This document shows positions 35,809 through 46,068 of a stretch of DNA of 64,000 nucleotides, piece after piece. The notes beneath the pieces were generated by a model. The model was given only the letters and a program-made list of their open reading frames with translations, ran no database searches and was not told the origin of the DNA. The stretch lies in assembly GCA_017472685.1 (NCBI GenBank), contig JAFUOO010000012.1:124001-188000 (forward strand), written 5' to 3'. The position numbers were made by a program, and so were the translations under genes. Numbering within the stretch: position 1 is the stretch's first letter; every line of letters begins with the position of its first letter. This stretch comes from Clostridia bacterium (GTDB taxonomy: Bacteria; Bacillota; Clostridia; UMGS1883).

Positions 35809-35842
35809 AATTAAAAGGACGCAAAAGCGTCCTTTTAATTTT
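35807..35842. terminator. Bidirectional terminator between ppa and bile salt hydrolase gene
   Basis: A perfect 16-bp stem (35807-35822 with 35827-35842) with an AAAA loop. The plus-strand ppa stop overlaps its first bases. The minus-strand bile salt hydrolase stop (35835-35837) lies in the right arm. Confidence 0.92.
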
Positions 35843-36794
35843 GATAAAAAATATTTTCTTTGGTTTGCAGATGATAGCTTATCAGCTTTGTTGCATCAAG
35901 GTTTTCCTTGTGCATATCAATACAGTTGATTTGTCTGTTATAATAGGTCGTATAATAGTACAATCCCTTATCCAGATTACAGCACGAGGAATATACCGTT
36001 ATATCGTCCTTATCGCCTATTCTTATACAGCCCTTTACCATTTCAACCGAAGAAAGAATGTGAAAAAATTGCCCTACACTTTCCTTCTCGTCAACATTAC
36101 ATCTGGAGTTTTCTTTTACAAACACTGCCTTTGCATAGCGTGACATGCTCGACCAATCACCCGGTAGTCCCACCGCTCCGTCAGCACGGGTAAAATATTC
36201 ATTCAGAGCTTTGTTCTCGGTGTCGTATGCTGATAAATTTTTATATTTTTCCCAATGCAAAACCTGTAAATTAAAGGGCGGATTATTAGTAAGCACCCCA
36301 AACCGGTTATCGTAAACAATCAAGCCGTCTTTCAAGCTTTCAACAGTTATAGAAGCCTTTCCGTCTGTAATTATCCAATGAAGCGGAGTATTGGGCAAAG
36401 CGTGAGAAAAATTAATGTTACAGATGTTAATCTTCGTCAAAAGCGCTTTAGCTTCCTTTACATCTGAACACAAAGAAAGAATATACGGTATAAATTCAAA
36501 GGGAGCAAGGTTGATTTTGTCGTTCTTCTCCTCAAAATAGTGGGCATTGTACGGAAAATTGAGCCCCGCTATGCCTAAGCCCTTTTCGTTTATTGCATCG
36601 TAATACAAGGGATATCCGTCATTTACATACGCCATGCCTATAATTGAATGATGGAGGTTGACGTTTTTGGTTTTTCTGAATGTAAAATTAAAATTTCTCG
36701 GCGTAATTGCCACAGCTTCATTATAAGAATATTCCAGGTCAAGGTTTCTTCCAAAATAGTAATCCTCAGATTTAAAAACAACAGCTGTACACAT
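35835..36794 (-). CDS. Bile salt hydrolase / choloylglycine hydrolase family
   Basis: A 319-residue Ntn-hydrolase. After removal of Met1, Cys2 would be the nucleophile (MCTAVVF). The other active-site residues of conjugated bile acid hydrolases are in place: R16 and D19 (FGRNLDLEYSY), N79 (GLNFPYNA), N171 (VLTNNPPF) and R219 (GLPGDWSSMSRY). Together these favour a bile salt hydrolase over penicillin V acylase, but activity is inferred. No signal peptide, so cytoplasmic. The start at 36794 is set by the Cys2 requirement and GGGTGA upstream; the ORF start adds three residues. A terminator 47 bases upstream separates it from the micro-ORF transcript and could act as an attenuator. Confidence 0.9.
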   Translation of the reverse strand: MCTAVVFKSEDYYFGRNLDLEYSYNEAVAITPRNFNFTFRKTKNVNLHHSIIGMAYVNDGYPLYYDAINEKGLGIAGLNFPYNAHYFEEKNDKINLAPFEFIPYILSLCSDVKEAKALLTKINICNINFSHALPNTPLHWIITDGKASITVESLKDGLIVYDNRFGVLTNNPPFNLQVLHWEKYKNLSAYDTENKALNEYFTRADGAVGLPGDWSSMSRYAKAVFVKENSRCNVDEKESVGQFFHILSSVEMVKGCIRIGDKDDITVYSSCCNLDKGLYYYTTYYNRQINCIDMHKENLDATKLISYHLQTKENIFYQN

Positions 36795-36841
36795 ATCTAT
36801 CACCCATTGTTATTGTCCCTTTAAATGAAGCAGTTATGCAA

Positions 36842-36871
36842 AAAACCGACGGTTTAGTTACCGTCGGTTTT
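36842..36871 (-). terminator. Terminator/attenuator after micro-ORF transcript
   Basis: A perfect 12-bp stem (AAAACCGACGGT and its complement) with a six-base loop, followed on the minus strand by a T-rich tail (six T after CGG). It lies between the micro-ORF transcript and the bile salt hydrolase start, 47 bases before the latter. Confidence 0.88.
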
Positions 36872-36959
36872 CTATATATTTAATTATTAATTAACACATT
36901 AAGAAAGTTTTCGTTTCACTGTATATAAGCGTATTCTCTATGTAAACTTAATTTTAATT

Positions 36960-36995
36960 CTATGTAGTGTATTTGCCACTAATTAATTGTTCAAT
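36960..36995 (-). CDS. Micro-ORF e (11 codons if ATT start)
   Basis: A perfect SD (AGGAGGA at 37002-37008) overlaps the stop of micro-ORF d. Seven bases on, an ATT codon would open EQLISGKYTT; a TTG one base further gives only three codons. No ATG is present, so translation here is doubtful, but the SD is one of the strongest in the window. Confidence 0.2.
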   Translation of the reverse strand: MEQLISGKYTT

Positions 36996-37006
36996 GGTAA
37001 ATCCTC

Positions 37007-37066
37007 CTACGCAATCGGATTTAATAAGATACGTTTAATTTGTTTTGACGAAATGAACTTTAACAT
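37007..37066 (-). CDS. Micro-ORF d, 19-residue basic peptide
   Basis: ATG with GGAGGG eight bases upstream encodes MLKFISSKQIKRILLNPIA. The peptide is basic and amphipathic, with four Lys/Arg and many Ile/Leu. Its stop TAG overlaps the next SD, as in translationally coupled genes. I recognise no family. It could be a leader peptide, a secreted signal or toxin-like peptide, or a remnant. Confidence 0.45.
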   Translation of the reverse strand: MLKFISSKQIKRILLNPIA

Positions 37067-37113
37067 TTGACTATCCCTCCGTGCAAAACGAAAACTATTT
37101 GTGCCTTTTCCTA

Positions 37114-37154
37114 TTCCGAATCGGCACCAATTTTTATATGATATCGATTCGGAC
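37114..37154 (-). ncRNA. Possible structured RNA hairpin within micro-ORF transcript
   Basis: TCCGAATCG (37115-37123) pairs perfectly with CGATTCGGA (37145-37153), giving a 9-bp stem with a 21-base loop between micro-ORFs c and d. It could be part of a regulatory fold or simply shield the next SD. Confidence 0.4.
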
Positions 37155-37156
37155 AA

Positions 37157-37171
37157 TCAATGATTGTACAT
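37157..37171 (-). CDS. Micro-ORF c, four-residue peptide MYNH
   Basis: ATG TAC AAT CAT TGA, preceded eight bases upstream by a strong GGAGG. The ORF lies inside a second weak hairpin (GGAC-CAATG with CATTG-GTCC). So short an ORF with so strong an SD is typical of leader peptides that act by ribosome position, not by product. Confidence 0.35.
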   Translation of the reverse strand: MYNH

Positions 37172-37189
37172 TGGTCCGTCCTCCGTTAT

Positions 37190-37222
37190 TTATTTTCTGA
37201 TAAAGTACACTGCTCTGATCAT
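37190..37222 (-). CDS. Micro-ORF b, 10-residue peptide sharing MIRAV with micro-ORF a
   Basis: ATG with GAGGTG a few bases upstream encodes MIRAVYFIRK. The first five codons repeat those of micro-ORF a (ATGAT-AGAGCAGTG with one silent difference), although the surrounding DNA differs. The frame is open back to an ATG at 37246 that has no SD. The MIRAV start recalls the first residues of PII proteins, so decay of a PII gene is an alternative. Confidence 0.4.
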   Translation of the reverse strand: MIRAVYFIRK

Positions 37223-37264
37223 TTTCACCTCAAGCACATCCTTCATAGAAATTTGGGATTATGC

Positions 37265-37291
37265 TTAATGCACTGCTCTAATCATCCTCAT
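37265..37291 (-). CDS. Micro-ORF a, 8-residue peptide MRMIRAVH
   Basis: First ORF of the transcript, about 75 bases after the predicted transcription start. ATG with AAGGAG eight bases upstream encodes MRMIRAVH. It shares ATGAT-AGAGCAGTG with micro-ORF b. No family is recognised. Confidence 0.4.
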   Translation of the reverse strand: MRMIRAVH

Positions 37292-37370
37292 ACTGAACAC
37301 TCCTTTTTGTTCAATCTATAAGCTGATGATTCTTTGTTCAGCTTTTTGTGTTTTCCCTCTCTTCAATTTT

Positions 37371-37399
37371 AAAATAACACATTTGTGCATTATTGTCAA
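37371..37399 (-). promoter_or_regulatory. Promoter of the micro-ORF transcript
   Basis: Minus-strand TTGACA (37394-37399), an exactly 17-base spacer and TATTTT (37371-37376). TGCACAAA occurs in the spacer (37382-37389) and again upstream (37424-37431). The transcript from here to the terminator at 36842 would be about 520 nt. Confidence 0.78.
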
Positions 37400-37418
37400 T
37401 AAAAATTTTATAGTTTTA

Positions 37419-37447
37419 AATATTTTGTGCACTTTTCACAAAATATT
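37419..37447. repeat. 11-bp inverted repeat upstream of micro-ORF promoter
   Basis: AATATTTTGTG (37419-37429) and CACAAAATATT (37437-37447) form a perfect inverted repeat with a seven-base centre, about 20 bases upstream of the -35 box. Its position suits an activator site. It is not followed by a T-run on the minus strand, so it is not a typical terminator. Confidence 0.55.
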
Positions 37448-37486
37448 CGCATGGAATTAGTGCAATTGATATTAAGTCTCAGTTTA

Positions 37487-37515
37487 CAAAAAAAGAGACC
37501 TGCACAGCAGGTCTC
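37487..37515 (-). terminator. Terminator after MATE gene
   Basis: A perfect 9-bp GC-containing stem (GAGACCTGC with GCAGGTCTC, 37495-37515) with a three-base loop, followed on the minus strand by T7. It lies 4 bp after the MATE stop. Confidence 0.92.
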
Positions 37516-37519
37516 CGGA

Positions 37520-38893
37520 TTATCCGATGGAAGTATTCTTCCACTTTCCCCTTGCATAAAACAAGGCTGTGAGAATTGCGCCCAGAATCCATGATGTTAA
37601 AAGAGAAATTTGTATACATTCACTTCTTCCGTAAGGCAGAATTTCGCTTCTTGTAAGATACGAAATGGTGTATGCAATAGGCACACGAACTATAACCGTT
37701 GTAATAAGGGAAATCCACATTGGTGTCATAGTATCGCCTGCTCCGCGCATTACGCCTGAGAGGCTTTGTGTAACAGCCACGGCAATATAGCCAACAGCAA
37801 GAATTTTCATAAGATAATAGCTTAAATCCACAAGCTCAACCGTTTCTGTGAACACACCCATTAACGGTTTACCGAACAATAGAATTGTGCCTGTGATGAC
37901 GGCAGAGCATGCTATTGCAATCAAGGTTCCCTGCTTTGCTCCAAGTGACACCCTGTCATAAAGCTTTGCCCCCACATTCTGTCCGGAATAGGTTGTCATA
38001 GCAGTTCCGAAGGAGAAGTTCGGCATCATTGCAAAACCGTCAACACGCATTATAACAACGTTTGCGGCAATAAACATTTCTCCAAATCTGTTTGTGAGCG
38101 ACTGCACAATTATCATAGCAGAAGAAAAGATTGCCTGTGTCAGACCTGATGGTATGCCTAAACGAATTATTGTGCTTACATACTGCTTGTTAAATTTGAG
38201 GTATTTTAACCCAAAATCAAAGTATTCATTCATTTTGGCAAGCTTTGCAAGACAAAGCAATGAGGAAATAATCTGTGCAATAACGGTAGCCAGAGCAACA
38301 CCGCCTACCCCCATGTTTACAACTGCAACAAAATAAACATCAAGAACAATGTTGATTACTGTTGCAATAAGAAGGTAAACAAGTGCTGAAAAGGAATCGC
38401 CCATTCCGCGGATAATACCGCTGAGAATATTATAATAAGCCATGCCTGCAATACCCACAAGCGAAATTACGAGGTAATCTGCACAACCGTCAAGAATAGT
38501 CTCAGGAGTGTTCAGTATAACAAGCACAGGACGAATTAAAGGCGTTGCAACCGCAATAAGAAGAATACACGCAACAGCTGTAAGAGTAATACAGTTACCA
38601 ATGGTATAGGACAAGCCTTCCCTGTTTTTGGCTCCGAAATACTGGGACACCATAATTGTGGCACCTGCTGATATGCCGATAAAAAGCACCAGAAGCATGT
38701 TAAGTATAGGCCCTGCACTGCCAACTGCAGCCAGTGCATTATCGCCAATATATCTGCCTACAACGATACTGTCAACAGTGTTGTACATCTGCTGTGCAAT
38801 ATTTCCTATAAGCATGGGAAAAGTGAACAGAAGAATACTTTTCCATGGACTGCCTACAGTCATATCAGTAGGCGCAAATAATTTCTTTAGCAT
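37520..38893 (-). CDS. MATE family efflux transporter
   Basis: A 457-residue membrane protein with twelve hydrophobic helices, of the multidrug and toxic compound extrusion family (NorM/DinF/MepA-like). It starts with PWKSILLFTFPMLIGNIAQQMYNTVDSIVVGRYIG and repeats the pattern in the second half (GIPSGLTQAIFSSAMIIVQSL). GGAGDTMTPMWISL near the end is also typical. It should export cationic compounds with Na+ or H+. It stands alone between two terminators. The substrate is unknown; proximity to a bile salt hydrolase does not prove bile acid export. Confidence 0.94.
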   Translation of the reverse strand: MLKKLFAPTDMTVGSPWKSILLFTFPMLIGNIAQQMYNTVDSIVVGRYIGDNALAAVGSAGPILNMLLVLFIGISAGATIMVSQYFGAKNREGLSYTIGNCITLTAVACILLIAVATPLIRPVLVILNTPETILDGCADYLVISLVGIAGMAYYNILSGIIRGMGDSFSALVYLLIATVINIVLDVYFVAVVNMGVGGVALATVIAQIISSLLCLAKLAKMNEYFDFGLKYLKFNKQYVSTIIRLGIPSGLTQAIFSSAMIIVQSLTNRFGEMFIAANVVIMRVDGFAMMPNFSFGTAMTTYSGQNVGAKLYDRVSLGAKQGTLIAIACSAVITGTILLFGKPLMGVFTETVELVDLSYYLMKILAVGYIAVAVTQSLSGVMRGAGDTMTPMWISLITTVIVRVPIAYTISYLTRSEILPYGRSECIQISLLTSWILGAILTALFYARGKWKNTSIG

Positions 38894-39568: not shown

Positions 39569-39644
39569 TGGTGACCCTACGGGGACTCGAACCCCGGTCT
39601 TCGCCGTGAGAGGGCGACGTCCTAGACCGCTAGACTATAAGGCC
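39569..39644 (-). tRNA. tRNA-Glu (anticodon CTC)
   Basis: A 76-base cloverleaf with encoded CCA. The acceptor stem GGCCTTA pairs with TAGGGTC (two G-U pairs). The D arm contains TCTAGCGGTCTAGGA, the anticodon stem-loop is CGCC-CTCTCAC-GGCG with anticodon CTC, and the T arm is CGGGGTTCGAGTCCCCG. The pattern closely follows bacterial tRNA-Glu. It has its own promoter and terminator, so it is a single-gene unit. Confidence 0.96.
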
Positions 39645-40473: not shown

Positions 40474-41961
40474 TTAACCAAAGGGGTTTTCGTCCTTGTA
40501 AGGAAGACCTGCGGGCTGGTTGTAAGCAACATCTTCAACACCAAGCAGCTTCATTGCTGCAAAGAGAGGCTTACCTGCATGCTTGAATGCGATACCTGCG
40601 TGGTGAGGATAGCACTTAGCAACAAGCACGTGACGGTAGAATCTGCCCATTTCCTTAATCTTGAATACGCCGATGCCACCGAAGCTCTTGCAGTCAACAT
40701 TTGCGATTTCACCTTCTGCTACATAAGAGCGAAGAACAGAATCCTTAGTGGACTGAAGACGGAAGATGGTTGTTTCGCCGGGCTTGAAGTTACCTTCAAG
40801 TGTACCGCGTGTGATGTCGGGCTCTGTATCGGGCTCGAGGTCTCTCTTCATGATTCTCTGATAGCTCATGGATGCACATGTAAGACATTCCTTAGCTGTG
40901 TTACCGCAGTGGAAGCCCATGAATGTATCTGTAAGCTTGTAGCCTGCAAATTCATCGGGGTTAGCTTCGAACATGTCCTTGGGAACAGAGTTGTTGATGT
41001 CAACAAGTGTTGCTGTCTTCTGTGTTGCACATGTGATTATGTATTCACTTACTGCACCGTAAATGTCTGTTTCACAAGCTACGGGAATACCGCGGGCTGC
41101 AAGACGACCGTTTACATAGCAGGGTACAAAACCGAACTGTGTCTGGAATGCAGGCCAGCACTTGTTAGCAAAGATAAAGTACTTACTTGCACCCTTGTTT
41201 TCTTCAGCCCAGTCAAGAAGAGTGATTTCATACTGAGCAAGACGAGGAAGAATACCTTCGTAGGGGTTGTTAGCGCCGATTTCAGCAGCCATTTCTTCTA
41301 CGAGAGCAGGAATTCTGGGGTCGTCCTTGTGTGCATGATAAGCTGCATAAAGGTCAAGCTCGCTGTTTTCCTGGATTTCAACACCAAGGTCCTTGTAAAG
41401 AGGAGAAATAGGTGCGTTACAAGCCATAAAGTCGTAAGGACGGGGACCGAAAGAGAAAATCTTAAGGTTGTGAAGACCAACAATAACTCTTGCGATAGGC
41501 TCAAAATCAGCAATCATATCAGCGATTTCATCAGCTGTGCCAACGGGGTATTCGGGGATGTATGCCTTTACACCGCGGAGATTGAGGTTGTAGGATGCGT
41601 TGAGCATACCGCAGTATGCATCGCCTCTGCCGTCGAAAAGGTCGCTCTGGCTTTCTTCAGCAGCAGCCACAACCATAACGGGACCGTCGAACTTCTGAGC
41701 AAGCATTGTTTCGGGAATTTCGGGACCGAAGTTACCAAGGTAGAGCACAAGTGCGTTAGCGCCAACACCATTGATTTCTTCAAGAGCCTTTAACATATCA
41801 AGTTCGTTTTCGATAATTGTATCTGCAACGTAAACATTGTCAAGGCCTTTCTTTGCGCATTCAGCCTTTACAGCTTCTTTTCTCTTAGCGCTTAAGCTGA
41901 TAGGGAAACAGTTACGGCTAACAGATACAACGGCTGTTTTTACTACAGGGATGTTAATCAT
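40474..41961 (-). CDS. L-fucose/L-arabinose isomerase family protein
   Basis: A 495-residue cytoplasmic protein related to FucI. Landmarks are MINIPVVKTAVVSVSRNCFP, YLGNFGPEIPETMLAQKF, RPYDFMACNAPISPLY, the GRLAARGIPVACETDIYGAVSEY segment containing acidic metal ligands, and MGFHCGNTAKECLT. It is annotated in relatives as fucose/arabinose isomerase; the true substrate is unknown. Being next to araD, it may feed L-ribulose or a similar ketose into that pathway. Codon use is strongly biased, giving a very long antisense frame. The ATG at 41961 has AAAGGAG upstream. Confidence 0.88.
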   Translation of the reverse strand: MINIPVVKTAVVSVSRNCFPISLSAKRKEAVKAECAKKGLDNVYVADTIIENELDMLKALEEINGVGANALVLYLGNFGPEIPETMLAQKFDGPVMVVAAAEESQSDLFDGRGDAYCGMLNASYNLNLRGVKAYIPEYPVGTADEIADMIADFEPIARVIVGLHNLKIFSFGPRPYDFMACNAPISPLYKDLGVEIQENSELDLYAAYHAHKDDPRIPALVEEMAAEIGANNPYEGILPRLAQYEITLLDWAEENKGASKYFIFANKCWPAFQTQFGFVPCYVNGRLAARGIPVACETDIYGAVSEYIITCATQKTATLVDINNSVPKDMFEANPDEFAGYKLTDTFMGFHCGNTAKECLTCASMSYQRIMKRDLEPDTEPDITRGTLEGNFKPGETTIFRLQSTKDSVLRSYVAEGEIANVDCKSFGGIGVFKIKEMGRFYRHVLVAKCYPHHAGIAFKHAGKPLFAAMKLLGVEDVAYNQPAGLPYKDENPFG

Positions 41962-42512: not shown

Positions 42513-43028
42513 CTATTTGATTTCAACAACTTTGATTTTTTCGGGCGGGATTGAGGTTTGTTCGGTTACAATTTCCGTAATAATACTAACCTGCATTTCA
42601 TCAAGGCTTTCAGCCTTAACCACAACATTTGCCTGGGAATTGTTTATGTAGCAAACCGCATCCGCGAAGCCTCTTGCCTTGATAAGATTTTCAATTGCTG
42701 TCTCGGTTTCGGTGTTGTCTGCCATTTCAAGAATTCCGCGTTGGGCAGTTTCTTTGCTTGTTACATCGGTATTTTCGTTGTTGATAATTTCGTTGAAGGT
42801 TTCAATGGATTTGCTTCTTCCGCTTTCACGTTCTAATCTGGCGCGGGAAAAGAAGTCGGTTTCGTAGCTATCCTCACCCATATTCCCCACAAGCTTAGCC
42901 TCCCCCATATAGCTTTCTGAGGCTTCATTGCTTATAAAACTGTTTTCGGACATGAAATTGAGATATCCTGCAAAGCATATAAGCAGTGCAAGCATAATAA
43001 GTGTAAGTTGTTTCTTTCTGAATACCAT
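42513..43028 (-). CDS. spoIIIAH: Stage III sporulation protein AH
   Basis: A 171-residue mother-cell protein. One TM helix (residues about 8-26) is followed by an extracytoplasmic YscJ/FliF-like ring domain (about 85-171; RGILEMADNTETETAIENLIKARG). In B. subtilis it meets SpoIIQ across the intermembrane space, forming the channel between mother cell and forespore. Last gene of the operon, immediately after spoIIIAG. Confidence 0.93.
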   Translation of the reverse strand: MVFRKKQLTLIMLALLICFAGYLNFMSENSFISNEASESYMGEAKLVGNMGEDSYETDFFSRARLERESGRSKSIETFNEIINNENTDVTSKETAQRGILEMADNTETETAIENLIKARGFADAVCYINNSQANVVVKAESLDEMQVSIITEIVTEQTSIPPEKIKVVEIK

Positions 43029-43510
43029 TATTTAATCTTCCTTTCAAATATTTTAATTCTGTGCGCATCGACACCCAAAAGTGCCGACACTGCCTCAGTA
43101 AGCTCTGTTTTTACTTTATCATTGCTACCTCCTTCAGCGGCTATTATAACCCCAAGGATTGACGGATATGTCTCCTCGATAATCATTGCATCTTCCCCGC
43201 CACCTTTTTGGTTTAATATGACGGTTTGCTCTCTGCCTTCAGCTTTGTCCTTAGCAAGCGTTACTCTGCCGTAATTTTTGGCAGTAATCATAACACTTAC
43301 TTTGCCGACTGAGGCAATTTCCGGCAAAATTTTTTCAAGCTTTTCTTCAAGTGTCCTGCAATAATCAAAGTCCTCCTCGATTACTGTAGGCTCTGTTTTT
43401 TCAGGCGAGATAGACGAGATAAAAATCAGTGCAATGCCCACCGCTCCCAATATGTATATGAGATTCTTTTTAGGAATATCTCTGAGAAGCTGTTTTAAAT
43501 CAGCCATCAT
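43028..43510 (-). CDS. spoIIIAG: Stage III sporulation protein AG
   Basis: A 160-residue protein with one TM helix (about residues 18-36) and a C-terminal ring-building domain (from LEKILPEIASVGKVSVMITAKNYG). It forms the large ring of the feeding channel. It begins inside the end of spoIIIAF (11-bp overlap). The first and second codons are both ATG, and the second has the better SD spacing. Confidence 0.93.
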   Translation of the reverse strand: MMADLKQLLRDIPKKNLIYILGAVGIALIFISSISPEKTEPTVIEEDFDYCRTLEEKLEKILPEIASVGKVSVMITAKNYGRVTLAKDKAEGREQTVILNQKGGGEDAMIIEETYPSILGVIIAAEGGSNDKVKTELTEAVSALLGVDAHRIKIFERKIK

Positions 43511-43943
43511 CCACTCCCCTTTTTACAAGTTCAATGTTTTCACAACCAAGTGTACTTTTAAGCTTTTCTTCTATGAGAATATCGGGCTTTTCACAATATA
43601 TCTTTACGGATTTTACTCTTCCGTCCGAAAATAGCTCAATAAATATTTCAGTATCTCCGGCAAAATATGTTTCAATATGCTTTCTTATATTGTCTTCATG
43701 AATTTTTAGTATATATGCATCACTTTTTGCCGTTATTTCTTCGTTTGATATTTCGCTGTCAAAAGAAAACCGGAACGGTTCGGTCTGTTTGAATTTTGTA
43801 ACAGGCGCTAAAAGAGCGCTCATAATCATAAAACCGAAAACAAGCTTCAGGTATTTCTTCATTGTTCCCTCGGGTATAATCATGTCGCTTACTATACATA
43901 GAAACGAAATTGAAACTATACTTACTATAAAGCTCTTTAGCAT
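43500..43943 (-). CDS. spoIIIAF: Stage III sporulation protein AF
   Basis: A 147-residue protein with two N-terminal hydrophobic helices (residues about 5-20 and 32-49; MKKYLKLVFGFMIMSALLAPV) and a soluble C-terminal domain. This order matches SpoIIIAF in B. subtilis. It starts where spoIIIAE ends. Confidence 0.9.
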   Translation of the reverse strand: MLKSFIVSIVSISFLCIVSDMIIPEGTMKKYLKLVFGFMIMSALLAPVTKFKQTEPFRFSFDSEISNEEITAKSDAYILKIHEDNIRKHIETYFAGDTEIFIELFSDGRVKSVKIYCEKPDILIEEKLKSTLGCENIELVKRGVDDG

Positions 43944-44989
43944 TACTTTATCCCCACAATCAAGGAAATTGATATTATCATCATCATTACGGTGGCGATA
44001 ACAGCGGCGTTTATCATGCTGAGGCTGTCCGCAACAGAAGAAAGTATGTTTATTGTTTTCGTATTGGCAACAGGCTCGCTCAATGCGGCGCTTATTCGTA
44101 TCATTATGATTGTGGCGGCAATTTTAACAACGGGCATTACGCACAGTGCCAATAGCGTAATAATTGCAGTTATCCCGACAGCATTCTTTAAAAGAATTGA
44201 TGCAGATACAACCGCACCCATTGCATCCGAAAGCGACCTGCCAACGAAGGGAACAATATTTGAAACAGCAAATTTAACCCCCTTGGCGCCCACAGAATCC
44301 AGCGAAGCGCCGGCAAATGAGCTTACCCCCAATAGCCCTGTAAAAAGCGTCATGATAAAGCCTAAGATGAAATTATAGGCTTTCTTTATCAGCTCACGGA
44401 ATTTTGTAAGCTGTATGGCATCGGTCAGCAAATCCACAAGCGATATGGCAAAATATGTAACCGACAAAGGAATAAGCACCCGTTGAAAAATTTCTGCAAA
44501 AACATTGCACATAAAATAAATAATAGGATTGGTTATAACCACAGTTTGGGTAAATCCGCTTCCTGCCGTAAGCGTCAGAAGCGCAGGAAGCACCGCAAAC
44601 ATAAGCTTTGTTATATCAGAGGATATATTGGCTGCATAATTGCCTGAGGTGAGAAAGATTTCTCCTGCCAAAGTTGCAGAAAGTGCAACAACTATCATTT
44701 CTGAGCCCAATGCCGTCGGCTTATTAAAAGAGGTGCGCAGATTTTCAAGAACTGCACTTATAAGGATAACAGCTACTATTACGCTGAGAATTCCAACGGC
44801 GCTATAAAGTTCATTTGCAAACAGATAAAACAGGTTGTTAAAAATTTCTTCCGGGTTAAAAATGTTTACTCCTGTTGAAATTTTGTCTGTAACTGAAGAA
44901 AAATCAAAGTCAGGATATACGCTGTTGAGGCTGTTATAACCATCCATGCTGAAGTTGTCAAGCTGTGGCATGTCTACAAAAGAATCCAT
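43943..44989 (-). CDS. spoIIIAE: Stage III sporulation protein AE
   Basis: A 348-residue polytopic membrane protein, the largest membrane subunit of the SpoIIIA complex. About eight helices follow an N-terminal soluble segment of around 70 residues. LGVSSFAGASLDSVGAKGVKFAVSNIVPFVGRSLSDAMGAV is the characteristic central region. Its length is shorter than the B. subtilis protein, mostly at the N-terminus, and a cleavable signal peptide is not obvious. Confidence 0.93.
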   Translation of the reverse strand: MDSFVDMPQLDNFSMDGYNSLNSVYPDFDFSSVTDKISTGVNIFNPEEIFNNLFYLFANELYSAVGILSVIVAVILISAVLENLRTSFNKPTALGSEMIVVALSATLAGEIFLTSGNYAANISSDITKLMFAVLPALLTLTAGSGFTQTVVITNPIIYFMCNVFAEIFQRVLIPLSVTYFAISLVDLLTDAIQLTKFRELIKKAYNFILGFIMTLFTGLLGVSSFAGASLDSVGAKGVKFAVSNIVPFVGRSLSDAMGAVVSASILLKNAVGITAIITLLALCVMPVVKIAATIIMIRISAALSEPVANTKTINILSSVADSLSMINAAVIATVMMMIISISLIVGIK

Positions 44990-44992
44990 ATA

Positions 44993-45382
44993 TTACCTCA
45001 ATAAATCAAGTATAAGTGAAAAAACATTTTCAACAATCGGCAACGCGATAAAAGCTACGGTAATTTTTCCAAGTGTTTCTACGTGCTTTGCAATAGCCCT
45101 TTCGCCCGATTCGTTGCATATATCTGCCGAGAATTCACACAGATAAGTTATGCCGATAATTTTCAGTATTGCAGTTACGTAATCCTCTGATATAGTTTCG
45201 ACTGCAGAAAACGCACGGATATCCTCTATTATGAGTACCAGTCTTGGCACTGCACCGAAAAGAAGAAACATACCTCCTGCAAGCGAAAGGCATAACGCAA
45301 AGTCTGTCCGTACCTGCTTTATGTAAAGCGACAAAAAAGATATGAGGATAGCACAACCAAAGTAAATTGCCACATTACTCAT
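44993..45382 (-). CDS. spoIIIAD: Stage III sporulation protein AD
   Basis: A 129-residue membrane protein with about four helices; ILKIIGITYLCEFSADICNESGE is the conserved core shared with stage III family members. It overlaps spoIIIAC by 4 bp and lies 3 bp before spoIIIAE. Confidence 0.92.
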   Translation of the reverse strand: MSNVAIYFGCAILISFLSLYIKQVRTDFALCLSLAGGMFLLFGAVPRLVLIIEDIRAFSAVETISEDYVTAILKIIGITYLCEFSADICNESGERAIAKHVETLGKITVAFIALPIVENVFSLILDLLR

Positions 45383-45573
45383 AGTCCGAATACCGACTTT
45401 ACGGTTGAAAACAGTGTTGCAATTTCTTCTACAAGCATTAAAAGAACTACAACCAATCCTGCAAGGGTTGTCATCAACGCTTGTTCATCACGACCCGATT
45501 TTGCAAGAAGTAAATTTAAAACAGCTACAATAATTCCAATGCCTGCAATTCTGAAAATTAAATCAATGTTCAT
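45379..45573 (-). CDS. spoIIIAC: Stage III sporulation protein AC
   Basis: A 64-residue protein with two TM helices and the conserved LLAKSGRDEQALM loop. Size and position are standard. It overlaps spoIIIAD by 4 bp. Confidence 0.93.
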   Translation of the reverse strand: MNIDLIFRIAGIGIIVAVLNLLLAKSGRDEQALMTTLAGLVVVLLMLVEEIATLFSTVKSVFGL

Positions 45574-45585
45574 ACACTACATTCC

Positions 45586-46068
45586 TTAAAGTAACAGTAT
45601 TATGAAGCCAATTCCCACTATTGCCCCACCGCTTTTATACAAACGATTTTTCATTATATATTCATTTTCCGCATCACAAATTCTCGCCTTGATGCTTTCA
45701 AGAAACAGTGCTGTGTTGGCGACCTGACAATTTACATCTTCCTTATTAAGGTTTTCTGCAAACGCAAAAATCACATCGCGGTCTTCTTTGTTAAGCGTTC
45801 CCATATTTTCAGCGGCCTTTTTCAATGCCTCCTCGGGCAGATATCCTTTTTTCTGAATGTATGAGTGTGCAGTTGAAAATAATTCGCCACGCATTCTGAA
45901 GCATTCGCATATATTTGCTGCCCGATATTCCAATTCTGTTTTTATATGTGTTGCCGAGCGGTATATTTCCCTTAATGCTTTTGTTCTTTCAGAAAGGTCT
46001 TTTGCCATAAGAAAGCCGGTAAGAACTGAAGAAGTAAGCACAGATATCATTCCGAACAATTTAACCAT
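45586..46068 (-). CDS. spoIIIAB: Stage III sporulation protein AB
   Basis: A 160-residue protein with TM helices at both ends (residues about 3-20 and 148-160) and a helical middle related to type II secretion F domains. Landmarks are LREIYRSATHIKTELEYRA and GTLNKEDRDVIF. It overlaps spoIIIAA by 8 bp. Confidence 0.92.
   Translation of the reverse strand: MVKLFGMISVLTSSVLTGFLMAKDLSERTKALREIYRSATHIKTELEYRAANICECFRMRGELFSTAHSYIQKKGYLPEEALKKAAENMGTLNKEDRDVIFAFAENLNKEDVNCQVANTALFLESIKARICDAENEYIMKNRLYKSGGAIVGIGFIILLL

Follow-up and report, generated by a model that had tools for sequence, protein, structure and literature searches.

A predicted RNA with five micro-ORFs and a putative pseudoknot ahead of a bile salt hydrolase gene in a Clostridia bacterium

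A predicted minus-strand RNA of ~520 nt, carrying five micro-ORFs (3 to 19 codons) and a putative pseudoknot, lies ahead of the gene for a bile salt hydrolase (BSH) in the window, by which we mean the whole 64,000-nt stretch of DNA that was analyzed. The conversion of bile acids in the gut starts with such hydrolases. We tentatively read this RNA as a multi-ORF leader through which translating ribosomes would control BSH expression, their presence on the micro-ORFs selecting among mutually exclusive folds. The layout of the region, a pseudoknot 3 nt after the stop codon of the third micro-ORF (c), and a predicted pairing between the fourth (d) and the ribosome-binding site (RBS) of BSH all point this way. 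Among the options raised in a preliminary description (a leader-peptide attenuator, a peptide or toxin locus, a regulatory RNA), a leader is thus slightly favored, while a classical attenuator and a peptide product are disfavored.

The micro-ORF region and its conservation

Read directly on the minus strand from 37447 to 36842, the region has the layout given in the preliminary description: an 11-bp palindrome, a promoter match, units a to d, each with a Shine-Dalgarno (SD) sequence, an ATG, and a stop codon, and an intrinsic terminator 47 nt from the BSH ATG (Table 1). The order along the strand is palindrome, promoter match, hairpin, a, hairpin, b, c, pseudoknot, d, e, AU-rich linker, terminator, and BSH. 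Unit e had been proposed as a possible unit without an ATG; it does lack an ATG but is an ORF with a TTG start (TTG-AAC-AAT-TAA), found in the sister species too, where it differs by one silent change. This TTG sits 8 nt after AGGAGG. The first 18 nt of b repeat the inner ORF of a with 3 changes. The distance from the terminator to the BSH ATG (36794) is 46 nt in the sister. Promoter-like sites number three in the region, which is not above shuffled sequences (mean, 4.2); a 36-nt stretch that is invariant between the two species includes the promoter match.

Table 1. Features of the predicted RNA and its surroundings, and of a candidate sRNA elsewhere in the genome (window positions unless a locus is given)
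Feature	Position	Strand	Details
MATE exporter, upstream	37520..38893	-	own terminator-like site 37516-37494 behind MATE in the window
Operator-like palindrome	37419..37447	-	AATATTTTGTG-N7-CACAAAATATT; core TTTTGTG-N7-CACAAAA at 37423-37443; core kept in sister
Sigma-70-type promoter match	37371..37399	-	TTGACA-17-TATTTT; TTGACA at 37399, TATTTT ends at 37371; 10/12 consensus letters in both species
Predicted RNA start	near 37364	-	from promoter match
5' hairpin AGCUGA/UCAGCU (sister, GCUGAA/UUCAGC)	37321..37343	-	in both sequences; probability 0.30 (window), 0.83 (sister)
Micro-ORF a, MRMIRAVH (sister, MRMIRAVY)	37265..37291	-	SD AAAGGAG 37306-37300
Hairpin, a's stop codon to shortly 5' of b's SD	37232..37266	-	outer 5 pairs: probability 0.40 (window), 0.97 (sister)
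Micro-ORF b, MIRAVYFIRK	37190..37222	-	SD GAGGTG 37231-37226
Micro-ORF c, MYNH	37157..37171	-	SD GGAGG 37184-37180; identical ORF in both species
Possible hairpin CGGAC/GUCCG closing in c's start region	37150..37178	-	U-G in sister; weight 0.01 in sister
Predicted H-type pseudoknot	37101..37153	-	S1 37153-37146 with 37122-37115 (8 bp); S2 37127-37123 with 37105-37101 (5 bp)
Possible competing 10-bp helix	37067..37160	-	37160-37151 (c's stop codon) with 37076-37067 (just 5' of d's ATG); invariant
Micro-ORF d, MLKFISSKQIKRILLNPIA	37007..37066	-	SD GGAGGG 37080-37075; one silent change in 60 nt
14-bp long-range helix enclosing d and e	36906..37096	-	37096-37083 with 36919-36906; both copies
Hairpin UAAAUCC/GGAUUUA, d's last codons to e's SD	36998..37023	-	invariant; probability 0.25 (window), 0.53 (sister)
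Micro-ORF e, TTG start, MNN	36983..36994	-	SD AGGAGG 37008-37003, overlapping d's stop codon
Intrinsic terminator, 12-bp stem	36842..36871	-	two compensatory pair changes in sister
Bile salt hydrolase (BSH, choloylglycine hydrolase), 319 aa, starts MCTAV	35835..36794	-	NCBIfam NF038245, 412.7 bits (cut-off, 350)
Candidate sRNA	L046:1501-1760 (G000:C7:19660-19919); also L045, L051-L070	+	anti-Shine-Dalgarno/anti-AUG core, intrinsic terminator

The number of micro-ORFs is above chance. Four SD-led ATG micro-ORFs of up to 25 codons were observed, whereas 1000 dinucleotide shuffles gave 0.475 on average and never as many as 4; under a stricter 6-nt SD rule only 2 units pass, a number reached by 14 of the 1000 shuffles. 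With 5 ATGs per 330 nt (the inner ATG of a counted), the region is the densest micro-ORF cluster in 464 kb of its own genome (the window and 20 further stretches, both strands), and the next two places have 4. The preliminary description knew of no described family with this layout, and 0 of 4227 Rfam models reach their gathering threshold in the region; the weak matches (to an E value of 5) all fall below gathering scores and lie nearly all on the terminator. A type I toxin-antitoxin locus was considered and rejected, there being no long hydrophobic run in any of the five micro-ORF peptides, d included, and no plus-strand sigma-70-like site, the one promoter type scanned, in 36700-37600.

One relative carries the same region. 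It is the goat-rectum metagenome-assembled genome RGIG3131 of the same genus (G002; here, the sister), whose contig JAFSGW010000002.1 has the region likewise between a MATE gene and BSH. The region is single copy in its own genome, and DNA homologues were found in 2 of 21 family genomes (own and sister), the 19 others giving no match. Within a class sample of 391 genomes the RNA occurs in 2, with 3 further matches of 29 to 34 bases taken as chance, and within a phylum sample of 398 genomes only its own genome was returned, the sister being absent from the results and presumably not drawn; both searches scored at most two candidates per genome. A search of 60 relatives returned 4 matches, of which two are promoter-like stretches in unrelated loci. 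Two other genomes of the genus yielded neither the RNA nor BSH nor a close MATE homologue, and the absence of the RNA there is uncertain because these genomes are 59% and 73% complete. At the peptide level, MIRAV[HY]FIR was found at three loci of the genome contig collection (the sister and two Rhizobiales records), and MIRAVYFIRK, among 28 genomes of the order, only in the genome of the window and in the sister. An SD-MIRAV[YH] pattern had no hits in the 391 class genomes, a weak test, as not even the units of the window fit this pattern.

The comparison between the window and the sister, which rests on two sequences from draft genomes (n = 2), shows the RNA to be more conserved than the BSH gene behind it. 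DNA identity is 62.9% for BSH, 78.4% for MATE, and 84.6% for the RNA, and it reaches 99% at 37000-37099. High intergenic identity is not in itself unusual here, because 3 of the 9 gaps of >60 nt in the syntenic block exceed 86% (98.1%, 93.8%, and 86.2%), whereas this 716-nt gap has 77.8% overall; it is the internal pattern that stands out. All five ORFs are kept in the sister, with changes in 5 of 147 ORF columns (3.4%) versus 78 of 348 columns (22.4%) elsewhere before the terminator, gaps counted (Fisher P = 1.4e-8). Four of these five ORF changes are silent; when five transitions were placed at random, no more than one was nonsilent in 5.5% of cases. The preliminary description had proposed, as a check, that SDs, starts, and stops be kept while spacers vary. 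In the one related genome this holds for starts and stops and for part of the SDs: the 14 nt before the start contain no changes for d and e and one for c, but 5 of these 14 columns changed in a and 5 in b, whose SD regions drift. The b unit of the sister has AGAGG and fails a 5-nt SD rule.

Counting start and stop codons, 4 of 49 codons changed at the third position, compared with 23.6 to 52.6% in seven flanking genes. Because these positions are nearly frozen, the letters of the RNA are held as well as the reading frames and peptides, and this bears on the possibility that peptides are the product, with d (19 amino acids, cationic) as a signal, modulin-like, or toxin peptide and the other units as regulatory elements. 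The peptide d does not differ between the species and its SD region shows no change, which favors such a product; yet d has a single silent change in its 60 nt, far from the third-position divergence of the flanking genes, it has no long hydrophobic run, and c and e make peptides of only 4 and 3 residues. The frozen third positions and these minimal peptides lead us to regard a peptide product as improbable.

The same pattern of change speaks against decayed mobile-element genes, in which the MIRAV and MLK starts would be the heads of truncated genes. MIRAV may resemble the starts of serine recombinases, and a gene in another genome, mobile-element-like as we read it, has a 93% match to a 29-base stretch. 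However, that match has an E value of 4.3e-5 per genome in a 391-genome search, with no extension seen, the phages, plasmids, and viral contigs searched gave no match to the region, and the same starts and stops are held in two species with far less change in the ORFs than outside them. Such an origin is extremely unlikely.

Some further features of the window were recorded in passing. Segment 38900-39750 around a tRNA-Glu gene (39569-39644) is not colinear with the sister, although both of its flanks align, and a 128-base piece with the tRNA-Glu gene matches the sister at 89% in an orientation opposite to that of the flanks, for which reason a small inversion or exchange is likely. A cobalamin riboswitch lies at 446-635 on the minus strand (Rfam RF00174; 109 bits). 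Sporulation genes of the spoIIIA type (Pfam SpoIIIAH, Spore_III_AE, SpoIIIAC, and Spore_III_AB) occupy 42513-46068 on the minus strand, near an L-fucose isomerase-like gene at 40474-41961.

Predicted folds and the ribosome

The RNA is predicted to fold more stably than shuffled sequences of the same kind, with z scores of -4.8 (window) and -4.6 (sister) against 100 shuffles each. An H-type pseudoknot is predicted in both copies, with a stem S1 of 8 to 9 bp, a stem S2 of GUGCC/GGCAC, and no linker between the stems. Its loops measure 18 and 9 nt in the window and 15 and 7 nt in the sister, and the stems stay. A search that allowed one G-U pair in the long stem found exactly one such knot per species, while 300 shuffles of each sequence gave none; under a Watson-Crick-only rule the knot is found in the window and not in the sister, which needs one G-U pair.

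The position of the pseudoknot suggests what the smallest ORFs might do. By the usual footprints of ribosomes, and with S1 beginning 3 nt past the stop codon of c, a ribosome initiating on the 4-codon c would reach almost to the pseudoknot and, on terminating, would lie within it; in this way c may serve as an opener of the pseudoknot. The stop codon of c and the first arm of the knot could instead pair with the spacer between the SD and the ATG of d (10 invariant pairs), and c would then decide whether d is read. This helix is merely a possible alternative, because the nested ensemble, whose calculation excludes pseudoknots, gives it a weight of 0.00. The last codons of d can pair with the SD of e, and a ribosome on d would reach this SD, which overlaps the stop codon of d; in this way d would gate e. 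The 14-bp long-range helix around d and e is weak evidence on its own, because a helix of equal length occurs in 25 of 300 shuffles.

These elements could be joined into a new class of RNA switch worked by ribosomes in series, in which the five ORFs would be parking positions, c would open the pseudoknot, and each ORF would gate the next as far as the BSH RBS, so that several translation events would be integrated. We consider this bolder form of the leader reading rather unlikely. The signal may be translation stress, caused by a drug or by starvation, which is a guess.

Relation of the RNA to the bile salt hydrolase gene

The BSH proteins of the two species share 57 to 59% identity, compared with 91% for the neighboring MATE. 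In a tree of the window's BSH with 13 of the 14 other loci (the truncated L024 omitted), window and sister are neighbors (100/99) on long branches of 0.58 and 0.57, which makes it probable that the gene was inherited and evolves fast. The RNA stands in the identical position before BSH in both species; such adjacency is weak evidence for a functional tie, because the whole neighborhood is syntenic in both genomes.

A possible link is the predicted pairing of the BSH RBS with codons of d when read-through RNA is folded (0.61 in the window and 0.31 in the sister). With a simulated ribosome at the middle or end of d, this pairing falls to 0.00 to 0.05 and the unpaired fraction of the BSH SD rises from 0.19 to 0.32 to 0.33 in the window and from 0.35 to 0.59 to 0.60 in the sister. 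Initiation on d, in the same simulation, leaves the RBS unfreed, and the BSH AUG of the sister becomes less free with a ribosome on d (0.51 to 0.37 to 0.38). Shuffled RBSs pair with d as strongly as the BSH RBS in 10% (window) and 11% (sister) of cases, and duplex partners stronger than d were found elsewhere in both leaders. In the leader reading, the terminator would set a low basal level of BSH expression, and in transcripts that read through it a ribosome on d would remove the codons of d from the RBS that they partly cover.

A classical transcription attenuator of the vmlR kind is disfavored. Two of its hallmarks were found, namely, SD-led leader ORFs (five, in both species; the SD of b in the sister is weak) and a terminator before the gene. 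No antiterminator was found: the best duplexes with either terminator arm are within about one standard deviation of 30 shuffles, and nascent folds gave no consistent partner. A single covarying 5-bp candidate, GACGG/CCGUC, appeared among 268 shared stems. The terminator remains formed in every simulated ribosome state, and some relatives have BSH genes with near terminators where the RNA is absent. This last point comes from the family's other genera, in which 13 BSH loci (12 of nearly full length and one truncated) were read, all of them in genomes that lack the RNA: 3 have a terminator-like site 54 to 61 nt before the ATG, and in the 250 nt upstream 8 have no sigma-70-like site. Neither species shows a promoter-like site between the terminator and BSH; because those 8 of 13 loci show none either, a missing promoter before BSH says little.

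This control weakens both the leader reading and its serial-switch form and strengthens an autonomous RNA, which would have a dual function or act in trans, use its own promoter and terminator, and carry micro-ORFs that dock ribosomes or stabilize the RNA, with BSH merely a neighbor expressed from an unseen promoter or by leaky read-through. The RNA has its own promoter match, its palindrome, and a strong terminator whose stem covaries; the palindrome reappears ahead of an sRNA gene (see below); the RNA is better conserved than BSH; and the BSH genes of relatives manage without this RNA, several with a terminator about as near. Since neither duplexes nor nascent folds supplied an antiterminator, and since some relatives' BSH genes have a near terminator without the RNA, an autonomous RNA is scarcely less plausible than a leader. 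Set against it are the identical position of the RNA before BSH and the pairing predicted between d and the BSH RBS, both of them in both species.

A recurring palindrome, a candidate sRNA, and known leader systems

The exact 21-mer of the palindrome, TTTTGTGAAAAGTGCACAAAA, occurs once more in its own genome. The pattern TTTTGTG-N7-CACAAAA, with one mismatch allowed, occurs at 6 places in this genome and 4 in the sister, versus 2 and 0 for a backwards control, and at least one of the places lies inside a coding region by eye. The same palindrome was seen upstream of a DUF523-like gene (exact 21-mer; L044:1501-1521) and of an ABC-type lipoprotein gene (one mismatch; L050:1501-1521), both named from reading their translations.

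A near-copy of the palindrome stands upstream of an 81-nt candidate sRNA, which shows no difference between the two species. Its open part, AAACUUUUUUCAUUUUCCCUCCUUUUAGUG, is complementary to an SD-ATG-AAA start. Matches to the sRNA region were found in 19 of 21 family genomes, several with neighboring second copies. In an alignment that took in 14 of the 20 matching loci, a TTTTGTGCA-N3-TGCACAAAA-like palindrome precedes the sRNA in 7 of the 8 sense-orientation rows, by eye. Rfam gave no family match at the sRNA and palindrome loci tested (L044 to L046 and L050).

That the micro-ORF RNA is a target or sponge of this family-wide anti-SD sRNA seems very unlikely. Similar palindromes lie upstream of both RNAs, and for b and d the pairing energy with the core of the sRNA is -18.6 to -19.9 kcal/mol. 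Compared with 37 RBSs of the window, b and d had looked exceptional, but among 274 ordinary gene RBSs from 464 kb, 9 to 12% pair as well. The other units rank lower still (a in the top 22% in the window or 54% in the sister, c and e beyond 60%), and a reversed core ranks them similarly. Moreover, the sRNA matches in 19 of the 21 family genomes and the micro-ORF RNA in only 2.

The csRNAs have anti-SD character, and by analogy the candidate sRNA may be csRNA-like. The csRNAs of the CiaRH regulon in streptococci, as outlined in their report (PMC4507080), are comparable to this sRNA and not to the micro-ORF RNA, and they differ from it in genus, in regulator, and in that the family sRNA has no preferential pairing with the micro-ORF RNA. 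Among large structured RNAs of gut bacteria, which are narrowly distributed, a 520-nt lncRNA of L. salivarius (PMC5643018) is of similar size; it is described there as noncoding, whereas the RNA found here has micro-ORFs and matches no Rfam family at threshold. The ROOL, GOLLD, and OLE RNAs (PMC12286853) are further examples of large gut RNAs with narrow distribution, structured like this one.

In erm genes, translation of a leader opens an occluded RBS downstream. For ermB, the two leader peptides ErmBL and ErmBL2 are described (PMC8274638), and translation of toiL, the uORF of topAI, likewise opens an occluded downstream RBS, with Rho-dependent termination inside the gene (PMC12121999). The predicted opening of the BSH RBS by leader translation would resemble both topAI and erm, but ermB and topAI have one or two leader ORFs, and the abstracts of these two reports name no intrinsic terminator before the gene, while five ORFs, two of them of 3 to 4 codons, are found here. 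The vmlR-type uORF transcription attenuators of Bacillus subtilis, as outlined in PMC9226507, have one uORF, an antiterminator, and an anti-antiterminator. The region shares with vmlR a short leader ORF, a structured leader, a terminator before the gene, and a fold that would be picked by the position of the ribosome; in contrast to its single uORF and antiterminator, we found five ORFs, a predicted pseudoknot, and no antiterminator.

The RNA would work like a uORF leader, and five serial ORFs with a pseudoknot abutting a 4-codon ORF form a layout not met in the literature matches listed. No leader with five micro-ORFs appears in the titles and abstract openings of these matches, and no paper on leader-peptide control of a bile salt hydrolase appears among the full-text matches listed. 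If the leader reading is true, uORF control would reach beyond one or two ORFs to a whole chain of them. A leader with ORFs of 3 to 4 codons would also make it testable whether minimal ORFs are ribosome positioners as opposed to peptide genes, and the family-wide anti-SD sRNA, with its similar upstream palindrome, adds a regulon to look for.
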